Source: Streptomyces sp. NBC_01353
Lineage (GTDB): Bacteria; Actinomycetota; Actinomycetes; Streptomycetales; Streptomycetaceae
Direction: 5' to 3'
Assembly: GCF_036237275.1 (NCBI RefSeq)
Contig: NZ_CP108352.1
Location: 5,084,001 to 5,148,000 of the forward strand
Length of the DNA: 64,000 nt
A program made the translations under genes and the position numbers. The notes beneath the pieces were generated by a model. The model saw only the letters and a list, made by a program, of their open reading frames with translations, ran no database searches and was not told where the DNA came from. Within the stretch, counting starts at the first letter, position 1; each line of letters opens with the position of its first letter. Below, piece after piece: positions 21,658 to 27,622 of the stretch.

Positions 21658-22142
21658 TTGGTCCGCTCGCGGACGTCCACGAGCGCGCCGCCGGCGTGGG
21701 CGATCAGCGACTTGGGGTCCAGCGCGAACACCGTGTGCGGGTTACCCGCCGCCGCCCACACCACGTCGTGGTCGAGCAGCCCGCGGTCGGCCAGGACCCG
21801 GGTCCGGGTGCGGTGCCCGAACGGCGGGACGCCCCCGATCGCGTACCCCGTGGTCTCCCGCACGACCCTCGCGTCGGCCCGCGTCACGGCCGCGGCGCCC
21901 AGCTCCTCGCGCACCCGCTCCACGTCGACCCGTGAGGAGCCGTCCATCAGGACCAGCACCGGGACCCCGTCCGCCGCGAAGATCAGCGACTTGACGATCT
22001 CGGAGACCTCGCAGCCGATGGCCTCGGCGGCCTGCGCGGCGGTGCGGGTCTCGTCCGGGAAGCGGCGGATCTCGACGTCCAGGCCGAGCTCCCGAAGGGC
22101 CTCGGCGAACTGGGGGTGGGCGTGGGAGTCAGGAGAGGTCAT
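21654..22142 (-). CDS. YbaK/EbsC family aminoacyl-tRNA deacylase
   Basis: This 162-residue cytoplasmic protein belongs to the YbaK/ProX-like trans-editing deacylases, which hydrolyse mischarged tRNAs such as Cys-tRNA(Pro). Visible features are IVKSLIF with the conserved lysine, the GYAIGGVPPFGH motif, and the C-terminal VFALDPKSL. ATG 22142 lies exactly 7 nt downstream of a TAGCGT hexamer, so a leaderless transcript is likely. It is the first gene of an operon with the EamA transporter. Confidence 0.85.
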   Translation of the reverse strand: MTSPDSHAHPQFAEALRELGLDVEIRRFPDETRTAAQAAEAIGCEVSEIVKSLIFAADGVPVLVLMDGSSRVDVERVREELGAAAVTRADARVVRETTGYAIGGVPPFGHRTRTRVLADRGLLDHDVVWAAAGNPHTVFALDPKSLIAHAGGALVDVRERTK

Positions 22143-22149
22143 GGCCCGC

Positions 22150-22155
22150 ACGCTA
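22150..22155 (-). promoter_or_regulatory. Candidate -10 box, leaderless deacylase gene
   Basis: Minus-strand TAGCGT lies 7 nt before ATG 22142, with no ribosome-binding site. Confidence 0.5.
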
Positions 22156-22193
22156 GCGGTCCGTGTACGGGCCACGCGAGTGGATTGGTCCGG

Positions 22194-22217
22194 GGTGGCT
22201 CACTCCCGCGAGCCACC
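22194..22217 (-). terminator. Hairpin terminator after the PBP gene
   Basis: Perfect 8-bp stem GGTGGCTC/GAGCCACC with an 8-nt loop, 16 bases beyond the PBP stop. Confidence 0.7.
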
Positions 22218-22233
22218 TCGATCCCTCCGGGAC

Positions 22234-23862
22234 TCACCCCGCGCGCAGCACGCTTGCGACCACCGGGCCGGCCGCGTCTCCGCCGTGCCCGCCCTCCTGC
22301 ACGACGGCCGCGGCCGCGAGGTCGTCGGAGTAGCCGGCGAACCAGCTGTTGGAGGTGGACTGGCCGTCGACCTCCGACGAGCCCGTCTTCGCGCCCTTGA
22401 TCCCGCCGACCGACGCCATCGCCTGCGCGCCCGTGCCTTCGCCGGTCGCCGCCGCCCGCATCATCGAGCGCAGCTGGCGGGCCACCGGGTCCGGCAGCGA
22501 ACGCGAGGCCTCGGCGAACGTCCGGCCGTCCAGCTCCTTGGACACCAGGAACGGCTGCTTGAACGTCCCGTACTTCGCGGTGGCGGTGATCGAGGCGATG
22601 TTGAGCACGTTCATCTGCACCGTGCCCTGCCCGATGTACTGCGCTGCCGCCACGCCCTGCGTCGCCTCGGGGACGGAGCCGTCGAAGGAGGTGATGCCCG
22701 TCTTCCAGTCGAGGTCGATCCCGAAGACGTCCCGGGCCTCCTTGCCGAGCGCGGAGTCGTCGTCGACCTCGTCGATCCACTTGATGAAGGCGGTGTTGCA
22801 GGACTTGGCGAAGCTCCGCGAGAAGGGCACGTCGCCGAGCGCGAAGTCTTCGAGGTTGTGGAAGGGCGTGCCGTAGTACGTGACGTTCTTCGGGCACGGG
22901 GCGGTGCCGTTCGCCGTCACGAGGCCCTTCTCCAGGAGCATCGCCGCCGTCACGATCTTCAGGGTCGAGCCGGGCGCCTGCTTGCCCTCGAACGCCGTGT
23001 TGAAGCCGGCGGACGGGCTGTTGGCGACCGCCCGTACCTCGCCTGTCGACGGCTTGATCGCCACGACCGACGCCTGCCCGTACTTCTTCACCGACCGCTC
23101 GGCCGCCGCCTGGACGGTCGCGTCGATGGTCGTCTCGAGCCGCCCGGGCTTGCCCGGGACATGGGTCACGAGGGTGGTGTCGGGGACGCCCTCGGTGTCG
23201 GACTGGATGAAGGTCTCGATACCCGGTTCCCCGCCGACCTTCGTCCCGTACTTCTCGCGCAGCTGGTCCAGGATCGGCCCGAGCGAGGGGTACTTCTCCT
23301 TCGTCAGCTCGACGCCCTTGCGGTCGACGGCCTTGACGGCGCCCGTCTTCGCCGCGCCGGTGCGCAGGGTCGAGTTCTTGGTCAGCTTCGGGTGGATGAC
23401 GGTCGGCTTCCACTCGATCAGCGGTCGCCCGGTGGTGAGCCCGCGCACCACGGTCAGCTCGGAGGAGTACGTCCAGGGCTTCGACTGTCCCTCGTACGTC
23501 ACGGTGGCGTTCACCGTGAACGGCACCTTCGTGCCGACCGCCGTGCCCGGGGTGATCTCCGCCGTGGAGACCTTCGCGCCTTCGCGGTAGTTCAGCACGG
23601 CCGGCCCGGCCTCGACGGGGTTGTTGGTCGCCTGCGCGGCCCGGTCGGACTCACCCGCCGCCCAGGCGGCCAGGAACTCCTTCGCTGCGGTCTCGACCTC
23701 GTCCCCGGTGACGGGCCCGGATCTCTTCTCCTCGGCCCCCTTGGTGCTCGCCCCCGAGCCGTCGTTGATCCCGCCGGCCAGGGTGTAGCCCCCGTACAGG
23801 ACTCCACCCGCGACGACGACGAAGACCCCCCCGACGATGGCCACCTTCGCTCCACTGCGCAT
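22234..23862 (-). CDS. Penicillin-binding protein, class B transpeptidase
   Basis: This 542-residue peptidoglycan cross-linking enzyme is anchored by one N-terminal helix (about 7-30). The order is an NTF2-like MecA-N domain (about 50-165), a dimerisation part (about 165-235), then the transpeptidase domain with S299-T-L-K302, S354-C-N356 and K492-T-G-S495. ATG 23862 follows a GGGGAG site. A -10-like TAGGCT lies about 30 nt upstream on the minus strand. It matches the small Streptomyces class B PBPs. It is monocistronic with its own terminator. Confidence 0.92.
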   Translation of the reverse strand: MRSGAKVAIVGGVFVVVAGGVLYGGYTLAGGINDGSGASTKGAEEKRSGPVTGDEVETAAKEFLAAWAAGESDRAAQATNNPVEAGPAVLNYREGAKVSTAEITPGTAVGTKVPFTVNATVTYEGQSKPWTYSSELTVVRGLTTGRPLIEWKPTVIHPKLTKNSTLRTGAAKTGAVKAVDRKGVELTKEKYPSLGPILDQLREKYGTKVGGEPGIETFIQSDTEGVPDTTLVTHVPGKPGRLETTIDATVQAAAERSVKKYGQASVVAIKPSTGEVRAVANSPSAGFNTAFEGKQAPGSTLKIVTAAMLLEKGLVTANGTAPCPKNVTYYGTPFHNLEDFALGDVPFSRSFAKSCNTAFIKWIDEVDDDSALGKEARDVFGIDLDWKTGITSFDGSVPEATQGVAAAQYIGQGTVQMNVLNIASITATAKYGTFKQPFLVSKELDGRTFAEASRSLPDPVARQLRSMMRAAATGEGTGAQAMASVGGIKGAKTGSSEVDGQSTSNSWFAGYSDDLAAAAVVQEGGHGGDAAGPVVASVLRAG

Positions 23863-23999
23863 GACCGCACTCCCCTCCCCAGGTGATCACGGCAGCCTAG
23901 GTGACAGGTGTGACTCGGGTGACGGTTGTTACCGGAACGGAACCGTGAGACCGGTGCGTACGACAGTGACCGTCCGACTCCCCCTTCACGTAAGGGACT

Positions 24000-24005
24000 T
24001 AGGCT
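24000..24005 (+). promoter_or_regulatory. Candidate -10 box, leaderless VOC gene
   Basis: TAGGCT lies exactly 7 nt before ATG 24013. Confidence 0.5.
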
Positions 24006-24012
24006 CGGCGTC

Positions 24013-24402
24013 ATGCGAATGAAGCTGACCGCGATCAACCTCGACTGCGCCGATCCCCTGGCGCTCGCCACCTTCTACGCGCGGGCCACCGGACTGTCGC
24101 TGCACGAGCGTTCCGACGGCGACTTCGCCGGGATCGTCGGCGAACAGGGGTTGGTCATCGGCTTCCAGCGGGTCGACGGCTACCGTCCCCCGTCCTGGCC
24201 GGGCCAGGACGTGCCGCCCCAGCTCCACCTGGACTTCGACGTCGACGACCTCGACGAGGCCGCGGCCCGGCTGGTCGAGTGGGGCGCGACCGTACCCGAG
24301 CCCCAGCCCCGCCCGGACCTGTGGCGGGTCGTCCTCGACCCGGCCGGACACCCGTTCTGCGTGTCCGCCCCGAAGAAGCGCCGTGCGGAGGCGCGCAGTT
24401 AG
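24013..24402 (+). CDS. VOC (glyoxalase-like) superfamily protein
   Basis: This 129-residue protein has two beta-alpha-beta-beta-beta repeats of the VOC fold (LTAINLDCADPLALATFYA... and LHLDFDVDDLDEAAARLVEWGA). The C-terminal DPAGHPFCVS is the usual metal-site strand. It could be a lyase, isomerase or dioxygenase, or a binding protein for resistance; sequence does not decide. ATG 24013 lies directly behind TAGGCT. It is monocistronic and divergent from the PBP gene. Confidence 0.82.
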   Translation: MRMKLTAINLDCADPLALATFYARATGLSLHERSDGDFAGIVGEQGLVIGFQRVDGYRPPSWPGQDVPPQLHLDFDVDDLDEAAARLVEWGATVPEPQPRPDLWRVVLDPAGHPFCVSAPKKRRAEARS

Positions 24403-24437
24403 GGCTTCCGCATCCCCGGTGCCGGTCTGATTGATCA

Positions 24438-24458
24438 CGGGCATATGCTCCGTGCCCG
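24438..24458 (+). promoter_or_regulatory. Promoter with inverted repeat
   Basis: CGGGCA (24438-24443) and TGCCCG (24453-24458) flank a -10-like TATGCT (24444-24449), about 40 nt before the next start. This is a possible operator; the regulator is unknown. Confidence 0.35.
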
Positions 24459-24486
24459 CACGCAAGGCAGACCGAGGGAGGCGTTC

Positions 24487-25116
24487 ATGAGTGATTCCGG
24501 GAGAGACGGTTCGGAGACCGGTGGCGGGGACTGGGTGGGCGAGGGGTCGAGAGGGACGCCGCCGTTTCCGGAAGACGTGAGTGGTGCGCCCGACAGCGGG
24601 ACCGGGCCGTGGCGCAGGTTGTCGTGCCTGGGGGCCGTTGTCATCGCTCTGGCAGCGCTGGCCGGAGGGATCGTCTGGCTGTTCCAGGATGAACCGTTCC
24701 ACCCGTTCGGTGACGTCCGGGCATGCGAGGGAAGCGACCTGCAGTTGCCGGACGCGATCCGCGCAGGGGGCGCATCGATACCCGCGGGCGCCTCCGACGT
24801 CCACTACTTCACCCGGAACAACAGCGCCCAGGTCACTTTCGTGAGCAACGAGATACCGGACTACCTTCACCGCGCGGGCATCCTCCCGGAGGGCGAGCCC
24901 CTGTTCGACGAGAAGTACGGCACCAAGGGGGTCGCCGACGATGAGATCGCTCTCCCGGACGGTCTGTGCGGCTCTTCCCTGCGGGGTCCCGTCTGGATCT
25001 ACCACTCCACAAGCGCCACCGGGACCAGCGTCGACGTCATGGTCGAGCGCTCTCCCACGGTCAACGACTACTTCCGACTGCCGGCCCGCGCCGTGGTCAC
25101 CTACAACCTCTCGTAG
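24487..25116 (+). CDS. Hypothetical single-pass membrane protein
   Basis: This 209-residue protein matches no family I recognise. A Gly/Ser-rich acidic N-terminus (about 1-44) precedes one membrane helix (about 46-66, LGAVVIALAALAGGIVWLF) and an extracellular domain with two cysteines (74 and 160). ATG 24487 follows a GGGAGG site. Its codons look slightly less GC-rich than the neighbours, and it sits just outside the duplicated pmt 3' end, so recent acquisition is possible but unproven. Confidence 0.7.
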   Translation: MSDSGRDGSETGGGDWVGEGSRGTPPFPEDVSGAPDSGTGPWRRLSCLGAVVIALAALAGGIVWLFQDEPFHPFGDVRACEGSDLQLPDAIRAGGASIPAGASDVHYFTRNNSAQVTFVSNEIPDYLHRAGILPEGEPLFDEKYGTKGVADDEIALPDGLCGSSLRGPVWIYHSTSATGTSVDVMVERSPTVNDYFRLPARAVVTYNLS

Positions 25117-25147
25117 CGGACCCGCGCCCTCTTCGTGTTCCTGCCCG

Positions 25148-25190
25148 GCTACACCCAGGTGTCGAGCCACATCCGATTCCGCCACTGGTC
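25148..25190. repeat. 43-bp direct repeat, relic of the pmt 3' end
   Basis: These 43 bases match 25879-25921 at 42 positions. Read on the minus strand they encode the last 13 codons of pmt (ending MWLDTWV) plus its stop, but no pmt gene is attached here. With the second copy they flank a 688-bp interval holding one GNAT gene. Confidence 0.9.
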
Positions 25191-25263
25191 GAGGGTGCCG
25201 CGGCGCGGGCACCCGCGCGTAGGTTGGCCGTCTCATCCGACGCACCGCGACGAGGATCAGTCC

Positions 25264-25791
25264 ATGCCCAGCAGCACCAGGATCCGCCTGATCGAGCCCA
25301 GCGACGCCGCCCCGATAGCCGCGCATCGGGTGCGGGACTTCGAGGCTTTCCGGCCGTGGGAACCGGCCCAGCCGGCCGACTTCTTCACCCCGGAGGGCCA
25401 GGCTGAGCGGATCGACAGCCTGCTGGCCGGATACCGGGCCGGCGCGGTCTGGCCGGGCGTGGTGGTCGCCGACGACCAGGTGATCGGGCAGGTCACCGTC
25501 GGAGGCATCCTGCCGCAGCCGCACCTGCGCCGCGGCTCCGTCGGATACTGGATCGCCGGCGTCGCCCAGAATCAAGGGCACGCCGGGCACGCCGTCGGGC
25601 TTGTACTCCGGGTGATGACGGACGAACTCGGGTTGCACCGCGCCGAGGCGTCCACCAATCTGGAGAATTTGCCGTCGCAGCGCGTGCTGCGCCGCAACGG
25701 GTTCAGCCCGTACGGCGTCGCGCACTCCTCGATCTTTCTCGACGGGAGCTGGCGGGACGGGCTGCTGTGGGAGCGGATCCTCGGCGACTGA
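25264..25791 (+). CDS. GNAT (RimJ/RimL-like) acetyltransferase between the pmt repeats
   Basis: This 175-residue acetyltransferase has the RimJ/RimL layout: an N-terminal IRLIEPSDAAPIAAHR strand-helix, a YWIAGVAQNQGHAGHAV segment as the acetyl-CoA site, and ASTNLENLPSQRVLRRNGF at the end. The pyrophosphate loop reads NQGHAGHAV instead of the usual Q/R-x-x-G-x-G/A, so activity may be altered. ATG 25264 has GAGGA upstream. It is the only gene inside the interval bounded by two copies of the pmt 3' end and was probably inserted there. Confidence 0.85.
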   Translation: MPSSTRIRLIEPSDAAPIAAHRVRDFEAFRPWEPAQPADFFTPEGQAERIDSLLAGYRAGAVWPGVVVADDQVIGQVTVGGILPQPHLRRGSVGYWIAGVAQNQGHAGHAVGLVLRVMTDELGLHRAEASTNLENLPSQRVLRRNGFSPYGVAHSSIFLDGSWRDGLLWERILGD

Positions 25792-25831
25792 CTACTGCCC
25801 ACCTGCCGGTAGGCACTGGAACGCCCCCTCT

Positions 25832-25866
25832 CCGAGAGGGCGCGGCCGATGGACGCGCCCTCTCGG
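25832..25866. terminator. Bidirectional hairpin terminator
   Basis: A perfect 13-bp stem (25832-25844 with 25854-25866) closes a 9-nt loop between the converging GNAT and pmt genes. Confidence 0.85.
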
Positions 25867-25878
25867 TGCAATTCCCCA

Positions 25879-25921
25879 GCTACACCCAGGTGTCCAGCCA
25901 CATCCGATTCCGCCACTGGTC
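25879..25921. repeat. 43-bp direct repeat, functional pmt 3' end
   Basis: This is the second copy of the 25148-25190 repeat (one mismatch). It forms the actual 3' terminus of pmt, including its TAG stop. Confidence 0.9.
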
Positions 25922-27622
25922 CATCGGAATCGACGTGCCCGTGTAGATCGGCCAGAAGTAGATGAAATTCCAGACGATGAGAAGAACGAGAACTCCCGCC
26001 CCCACCGCCCCGAACGTCCGGCGCCTTTCCGAGGAGCCCGGTGGGCCGATCATCGCGCCGATCATCATGGTCACCGCGAGGCACAGGAACGGCACGAACA
26101 CCACCGCGTAGAAAAGGAAGATGGTGCGTTCCTGATAGAGGAACCACGGCAGCCAGCCCGCCGCGATTCCGCACGCGATCGCGCCCGCACGCCAGTCCCG
26201 GCGGAAGGCCCAGCGCCACAGGATGTACAGGATCGCGAAGCACGCCGCCCACCACAGCAGCGGTGTGCCGAGGGCCAGGACCTCCTGGGCGCACTTCTCC
26301 GTCGCGTTCGTGGGGCAGCCCGCCGTGCCCGGTGACGGGGACTCGTAGAAGTACGAGACGGGGCGGCCCAGGACGATCCAGCTCCACGGGTTCGACTCGT
26401 ACGTGTGCGGCGAGTTCAGCCCCACGTGGAACTTGTAGACCTCGGTCTCGTAGTGCCACAGGCTGCGCAGCCAGTCCGGCAGGAACGCCCACGTTCCGCC
26501 GCCGTTCAGCCTGTCCTGCTCCGTCGCCCAGTTGCGGAAGTAGCCCTTGTCCGTGACGATCCAGCCCGTCCACGTGACCAGGTACGTGACGATCGCGACC
26601 GGCACCACCGAGACGAACGCCGGGATCAGGTCGCGCTTGATCACCGCGACGTACGGGCGGAACGCGCCGGCCGTACGCCGGGCGCCCACGTCCCACAGGA
26701 CCGTGAGGAGCCCGAAGGCCACCATCACGTACAGACCGTTCCACTTGGTCGCCGCCGCGAGCCCCAGCGTCACCCCCGCCGCGAGCCGCCACGGCCGCCA
26801 GCCGAGCCGCAGGGTCTCCGCGATGTCCGCGTCCGGCCGCAGGACCCCCTCCTCGTCCACGGGCAGGGCACCCGCCAGCCTCCGCCGAGCCCAGTCACGG
26901 TCGACGACCAGACAGCCGAAGGCGGCGAGCACGAAGAACATCAGCACCTGGTCGAGCAGGGCCGTACGGCTCATCACGAAGTGCAGACCGTCCACCGCGA
27001 GCAGCAGACCGGCCAGACACCCCAGGAACGTGGAGCGGAACAGCCGCCGCCCGATCCGGCACAGCATCAGCACCGAGAGGGTGCCGAGCAGCGCCACCAT
27101 GAACCGCCAGCCGAACGGCGTGAAGTCGAAGATCTTCTCGCCCAGACCGATGACCCACTTGCCCATCGGCGGATGGACCACATAGCCCGGCTCGGTGGGG
27201 ATCGCGACCGCGTCGGGGTTGGCGAGGATCGACTTGTCGATGTCCTTCGGCCACGCCCCCTCGTAACCCTGGTTGATCAGCGCCCAGGAGTCCTTGGCGT
27301 AGTACGTCTCGTCGAATATCACCGCATTCGGCTTGCCCAGGTTCCAGAACCGCAGCAGCCCCGCCAGCAGCGCCACGAGCAGGGGACCGCCCCAGGCGGC
27401 GAGCCGCCAGATCACGTCCGAGGCCCCGTGCGTGACCCCGAGCAGCGACCACAGCCGCTGCGACGGCCGTGTGTACGACGGCACGAGACGCTCCGGCAGC
27501 CCCGGCCCGGCGGCCCTCGATGCGGGCGGTGCGTAGCCGAAGCGCCGCAGACGCTGCTGCCACGACGGGGGCTCTTCCACGACGTGCTGACCCTGCAGGG
27601 CCTCGGGTGCGGTACTGGTCAC
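25880..27622 (-). CDS. pmt: Protein O-mannosyltransferase (GT39 family)
   Basis: This 580-residue polytopic membrane enzyme transfers mannose from polyprenyl-phosphate mannose to Ser/Thr of exported proteins. A cytoplasmic Pro-rich N-terminus (1-70) precedes helix 1 (about 75-92). The first loop carries the catalytic D104-E105 pair in FDETYYAKD, and HPPMGKW follows. About ten more helices precede a C-terminus ending WLDTWV. GTG 27622 lies 6 nt after a TACGAT hexamer, suggesting leaderless expression. In S. coelicolor the orthologue glycosylates lipoproteins and is needed for phage phiC31 infection. It diverges from rsmI. Its last 13 codons are duplicated 731 bp away. Confidence 0.93.
   Translation of the reverse strand: MTSTAPEALQGQHVVEEPPSWQQRLRRFGYAPPASRAAGPGLPERLVPSYTRPSQRLWSLLGVTHGASDVIWRLAAWGGPLLVALLAGLLRFWNLGKPNAVIFDETYYAKDSWALINQGYEGAWPKDIDKSILANPDAVAIPTEPGYVVHPPMGKWVIGLGEKIFDFTPFGWRFMVALLGTLSVLMLCRIGRRLFRSTFLGCLAGLLLAVDGLHFVMSRTALLDQVLMFFVLAAFGCLVVDRDWARRRLAGALPVDEEGVLRPDADIAETLRLGWRPWRLAAGVTLGLAAATKWNGLYVMVAFGLLTVLWDVGARRTAGAFRPYVAVIKRDLIPAFVSVVPVAIVTYLVTWTGWIVTDKGYFRNWATEQDRLNGGGTWAFLPDWLRSLWHYETEVYKFHVGLNSPHTYESNPWSWIVLGRPVSYFYESPSPGTAGCPTNATEKCAQEVLALGTPLLWWAACFAILYILWRWAFRRDWRAGAIACGIAAGWLPWFLYQERTIFLFYAVVFVPFLCLAVTMMIGAMIGPPGSSERRRTFGAVGAGVLVLLIVWNFIYFWPIYTGTSIPMDQWRNRMWLDTWV

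Follow-up and report, generated by a model that had tools for sequence, protein, structure and literature searches.

The window is the whole stretch of DNA analysed here, 64,000 nucleotides long (positions 5084001-5148000 of contig C1 in genome G000, which is 8.57 Mb in size). The region of interest within it is bounded by two genes read on the minus strand. One is a functional copy of pmt, encoding a protein O-mannosyltransferase (25880-27622; Pfam PMT 3.3e-23, PMT_4TMC 2e-21; NCBIfam NF058602 at E 1.1e-90, yet under the family cut-off); the other is pbp, a transpeptidase gene (22234-23862; Pfam Transpeptidase 3.1e-29), the customary downstream neighbour of pmt. Three accessory genes lie between them on the plus strand: a glyoxalase-like gene (24013-24402; Pfam Glyoxalase_6 3.8e-26); orf223 (24445-25116), of no recognised family, with no Pfam match for 24487-25113; and a GNAT block (25192-25791), made up of a coding sequence at 25264-25791 (Pfam Acetyltransf_3, E 1.3e-17) and its upstream region.

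The end of pmt is present twice. The two stretches, 25148-25190 and 25879-25921, are direct repeats with a spacing of 731 bp and 42 identical bases in 43; ungapped extension carries the match to 25123-25190 against 25854-25921, at 87% over 68 bp; given the base composition of the window and independent bases, a match of at least 42 in 43 would be expected by chance about 4e-12 times per 64 kb and about 1e-13 times within 1 kb. The right copy (25879-25921, minus strand) is the genuine end of the gene: its final 13 codons, the stop codon TAG (25880-25882, minus strand) and one further base. The left copy (25149-25190, minus strand) is a relic of the same 3' end, with a TAG stop and no pmt joined to it. 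It keeps 42 bp, under half, of an attachment core of about 87 bp at the pmt end (25880-25966), a length taken from attL/attR pairs and an attP in relatives. A further 26 bp are kept past its stop (25123-25148, minus strand), including one arm (about 25123-25137) of a terminator-type hairpin; the copy is thus truncated both at 42 bp of core and within the hairpin, which is broken (folding z 0.02). The hairpin 3' of pmt itself (25832-25866, minus strand) is intact, with 13-bp arms, -32 kcal/mol and z -3.66. This hairpin and a single intact 175-aa GNAT gene are all that lies between the repeats. The initial annotation had described much of this from the letters alone: a 42/43 repeat, the right copy as the real pmt end, the left as a stop-containing relic without pmt, and only a GNAT gene and a terminator between them. 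All of these stand, with the 68-bp extension and the left-hand tail and its hairpin arm as additions.

The tails that follow the two stop codons are of different kinds. Left and right agree at only 18 of 26 positions in the tail and at 40 of 41 in the coding part. The left tail is identical at 26 of 26 positions to the tail that follows pmt in genome G174, and at 24 of 26 to that in G129; when it was sought together with its TAG at three or fewer mismatches among 392 genomes, it was found in three, namely the window's own, G174 and G129, in the last two immediately 3' of pmt. The right tail is of an element type found in relatives, being nearest to that of G015 (23/26) among the three tails compared. 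In its coding part the left copy resembles the window's own pmt (40/41) more than that of G174 (36/41), so that only the tail points to G174.

The usual layout in relatives is pmt followed by pbp in the same direction, often with a YbaK-type gene (a label assigned here). The sample consisted of the best 80 of 265 confirmed pmt loci, all titled Streptomyces except one from Microtetraspora glauca. The initial annotation had proposed looking for relatives without the insert, and these are common: 35 of the 80 named loci are empty, with pbp 93-233 bp after the pmt stop. Another 43 are occupied, eight of them scored so since pbp was unseen within the 3.6-5.0 kb examined, and two (L047 and L089) are undecided at contig ends. 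The closest named pmt among these best 80 of 265 loci, that of Streptomyces sp. Je 1-79 (89% protein identity), has an occupied site. It had likewise been proposed to look for other genes in the same interval, and the slot proves variable: in 45 loci a home-made gene caller predicted 81 ORFs, which make up 55 clusters, 45 of them confined to a single locus. Occupancy goes with the character of the pmt end. A perfect stem of at least 8 bp follows pmt in 28/43 occupied versus 1/35 empty loci (Fisher 3e-9, not corrected for descent) and is missing by the same test in the remaining 15/43; the pmt stop is TAG in 36/43 occupied versus 7/35 empty loci, again not corrected for descent.

Short repeats of 13-29 bp occur in L042, L047, L053 and L110; in L042 (6743-9042), an exact second copy of 29 tail bases lies about 2.3 kb further downstream of pmt and may be another element end. 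A linear 407-kb Streptomyces plasmid (NZ_CP108303.1, L169) carries a pmt-type gene whose downstream neighbour is a two-component system and not pbp. G174 and G129 (loci L125 and L156) have, besides their near-identical pmt tails, a similar gene for a secreted-looking protein of 177-178 aa between pmt and pbp. The shared tail and cargo gene suggest transfer at this site; the cargo gene was not found in the window.

Second pmt ends lie downstream of pmt in four of the 80 loci (L050, L074, L075 and L088) and in genomes G015, G034 and G040, and tyrosine recombinases accompany them. The recombinase of G015 is intact (414 aa; Phage_integrase E 3.4e-11); that of L075 is a fragment (Phage_integrase E 4.5e-8); that of L050 is broken, with no Pfam match and a tblastn value of 1.7e-49. 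Matches to the G015 integrase at E <= 1e-50 are found in at least 121 of 199 genomes, and proteins at least 74% identical to it in at least eight, the next best standing at 66%; both counts are lower bounds, up to nine candidates having been scored per genome. All eight genomes with an integrase of this close type (G015, G019, G023, G034, G040, G086, G167 and G168) have two pmt-end matches, in G167 and G168 on separate contigs; a single pmt end is present in G174 and in G069, G049 and G074 (best integrase 65-66%). Between the end of the integrase gene and the displaced pmt end lie 20-92 bp in seven of the eight genomes, and about 690 bp in G015. The search for integrases adjoining pmt ends, also put forward in the initial annotation, thus leads to one integrase family. 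A phage origin for this integrase was considered and set aside: 804 phage records match it, all at less than 60% identity.

Measured from pmt stop to pmt stop, the elements are 8.8 kb long in G015, 16.6 kb in G034 and 19.0 kb in G040. By Pfam, G015 carries Phage_integrase, HTH_17, GntR-UTRA and HNH genes, with no FtsK-type gene recognised in its 8.8 kb; G040 carries FtsK_SpoIIIE (E 3.6e-7) and Prim-Pol (E 1.1e-9) genes; and G034 carries a DUF3631 gene, together with a 669-aa transfer candidate that has no Pfam match. What looks like the excised form of such an element has been deposited as a circular 18,451-bp plasmid of Streptomyces sp. NBC_00562 (NZ_CP107792.1, L168), annotated with FtsK, primase/polymerase, NUDIX, GntR, XRE, HTH and integrase genes. 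Its integrase, 88% identical to the G015 type, is encoded about 2 kb from a pmt 3' end that spans the origin of the record, with two small genes intervening; this end has a TAG stop and a strong hairpin (z -5.68), and is the attP that an insertion model requires. The record repeats 66 bp across its origin, which we take as an assembly overlap. Among them, the pmt elements of relatives have an integrase near att, an FtsK/TraB-type transfer gene, a replication gene of their own and a circular form with attP, and so qualify as AICEs; gene content was scored from G015, G034, G040 and NZ_CP107792.1.

The way in which these elements join pmt is read here from the sequences of relatives only. A circular element carrying a copy of about 87 bp of the pmt 3' end (attP) would recombine with the chromosomal pmt end; the reading frame of pmt would stay intact but close with a stop codon supplied by the element, usually TAG, and with the element's terminator hairpin behind it; the old 3' end would come to lie beyond the element, ahead of pbp. 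As the attP carries a pmt end, a TAG and a hairpin, integration would supply pmt with a new stop codon and terminator. Nine pairs of functional and displaced ends from the same genome, read by eye (G015, G019, G023, G086, G168, G065, L075, L050 and L088), are consistent with such an exchange: the functional end has TAG (seven) or TAA (two) and an element-type tail, and the displaced end has TGA (eight) or TAA (one) and the native upstream region of pbp. The two tails of G015 fold with z of -4.55 versus -0.89. L074, whose second copy has no stop codon, was left out of this set, and two weak tblastn ‘copies’ in L117 and L118 were dropped by eye. In G034, G040 and G167 the displaced copy itself has TAG and a hairpin; here a second element seems to have entered ahead of an older one, that is, by accretion. 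The sites can also be set out as a series of decay, from the intact element of G015, through the broken integrases of L075 and L050, to G065, where an integrase fragment and both pmt ends lie within 1.2 kb, and finally to the window.

Seen against this series, the window's two direct repeats match the att core of elements that occupy the same site in relatives, and they are very probably the leftover ends of AICE-type elements, now lost, that once inserted into the 3' end of pmt. The initial annotation had suggested a decayed or mini integrative element using pmt as its attachment site; the decayed ends are borne out, a working mini-element is not. It had also named two findings that would count against such an origin, the same GNAT gene in all relatives together with both copies at equal divergence, and a left copy lying within a conserved unrelated element, and neither was seen.

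The details favour a history of two insertions. A first element, with a tail like that of G174 and G129, would have inserted in the window's lineage; a second, with a G015-like tail, would then have inserted at the pmt end so restored, pushing aside the end of the first, which became the left copy. Two such successive insertions, which we consider likely, predict a near-identical coding core and two differing tails, both of element type, and this matches the window. Since both copies bear a stop and terminator tail of element type, the left one most plausibly represents attL of the older element, displaced by the newer one. Later deletions would account for what is missing, namely the genes of the elements, some 45 bp of core and half the hairpin at the left copy, and the end first displaced towards pbp, with the GNAT gene, orf223 and the glyoxalase gene presumably remaining between pmt and pbp. 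The right-hand tail type is frequent in related species, and could therefore have been inherited rather than brought by a second insertion.

Against this reading stand the shortness of the left core, under half kept, the closeness of its coding part to the resident pmt rather than to that of G174, and the missing genes. As the initial annotation had noted for the integrase, a search with 105 ORFs from seven element-bearing loci found no integrase, transfer, replication or other element genes in window 22101-25882; it returned the pmt-end and pbp matches and short, low-scoring ones (best 26 aa, E 0.001), which were rejected as element relics and taken as chance. No further pmt relic or displaced end near pbp was found in the window by a repeat finder or by tblastn of pmt ORFs. 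The window accordingly lacks between its repeats the genes expected of an AICE, and holds nothing found able to mobilise itself.

A window without any integrase found invites a different account, whose homologous form the initial annotation had named as its alternative: DNA from outside, carrying a pmt end like that of G174, would have come to lie beside the resident end by homologous or illegitimate exchange, with no integrase acting in this lineage. The near-identity of the coding parts could permit pairing, and the tail and cargo gene that G174 and G129 have in common speak for a stretch that passes between species. However, all eight genomes with an integrase of the one family have a second pmt end, a circular form with attP has been deposited, and both tails in the window are element-type, so that even moved ends would be element-made; we regard exchange as unlikely.

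The GNAT gene itself raises another possibility, that the block is a mobile cassette whose insertion created the duplication. The block does recur: at least 520 bp of it, at 84-97% identity, are present in at least 22 of 198 other genomes (two candidates scored per genome; shorter matches occur in a few more), with neighbours and flanks that are unrelated from one genome to the next. But its left end varies among genomes, no shared flanking repeat was seen by eye, and a duplication made by insertion predicts equal tails, where 18 of 26 positions agree. With no constant left end to the conserved block, self-mobility was rejected, and an origin of the repeats by this route is very improbable. 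Some GNAT flanks resemble IS or transposase ends by eye. At L005-L026 a RimJ/RimL-like GNAT gene, at 84-97% nucleotide identity, occupies many unrelated places in Streptomyces chromosomes, in several of them downstream of an apparent glycerol kinase gene (a label given by eye). No substrate is claimed for the protein, all NCBIfam matches (RimJ-type, aminoglycoside 6'-acetyltransferase and others) falling under their cut-offs.

Decayed element ends remain the preferred reading of the repeats, and the GNAT gene between them is an accessory gene of scattered occurrence. No pmt was found within 1.5 kb of the block in loci L005-L029; block and pmt are more than 2 Mb apart in the six genomes where both places are listed on one contig; and the gene is absent from pmt in every relative looked at, so that nothing indicates that an element delivered it. 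It may be element cargo or the filler of a deletion, its neighbours elsewhere being unrelated. As to the other two genes, orf223 was not found in the 80 pmt loci; similar DNA is present in G024 at 84% and 70% (four candidates scored per genome). The glyoxalase gene is 84% identical to a G015 gene with other neighbours; counterparts of the neighbours on one side of that gene lie about 46 kb from the window copy, and those on the other side about 72 kb away in the opposite direction, so either the gene or its surroundings must have shifted place, in one lineage or the other.

These observations document, at sequence level, a protein-coding gene that serves AICEs of Streptomyces as a target, and they bring together its empty, occupied, accreted and decayed states and the free circular form. 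A tail of stop codon and terminator would make past insertions readable from the pmt end alone, and the sequences suggest that such elements insulate themselves and alter the coupling of an O-mannosylation gene with a cell-wall gene. More tentatively, and with some doubt, it might be that the element's stop and terminator uncouple pmt from pbp and, even once the element is gone, lastingly mark the insertion, that the pmt-pbp gap is a recurrent slot for gene exchange, and that the GNAT gene could still be mobilised by an incoming element of like kind. The pmt site might also be put to use, together with its integrase, as a tool for integration.

No report of AICE integration at a mannosyltransferase gene, or of pmt as attB, in Streptomyces was found in the literature searched. 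Among known kinds of remnant, a CIME is a cis-mobilisable one flanked by att sites. The window resembles a CIME in having a gene between att-like repeats and no integrase of its own; it differs in that the left site is trimmed to 42 bp of core, and mobilisation in cis is a possibility only.

The intact elements of relatives resemble the actinobacterial AICEs described in PMC3218068: they share a tyrosine integrase, genes for replication and for FtsK-type transfer, insertion at a gene's 3' end, and direct repeats. The AICEs with tyrosine integrases in that account lie nearly all in tRNA genes, except those of the pSLS sub-family, whereas the target here is a protein-coding gene. A closer parallel is AICE06 of Streptomyces S1D4-23 (PMC9513070), inserted in a ‘phospholipid carrier-dependent glycosyltransferase’ gene and accompanied by decayed remnants in sister strains. 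The same product name is borne by the pmt-type gene of NZ_CP108303.1, whose end matches the core at 80%, and the target of AICE06 appears, by this shared name and not by sequence, to be a pmt ortholog. Like the pmt site, that of AICE06 and its derivatives is empty, full or decayed across strains; unlike the window, where no integrase was found, its decayed sites retain truncated integrases; and the example of accretion given there is at a tRNA-Arg gene, whereas accretion here is at pmt. Exchange of stop codon and terminator is not named in the sections of that paper on AICE06. As an AICE and its decayed remnants are described there in a like-named gene, the window is counted as a further case: the docking site seems to have been reported before, and the window appears to illustrate, with good documentation, something of a known kind and not to reveal a new mechanism.
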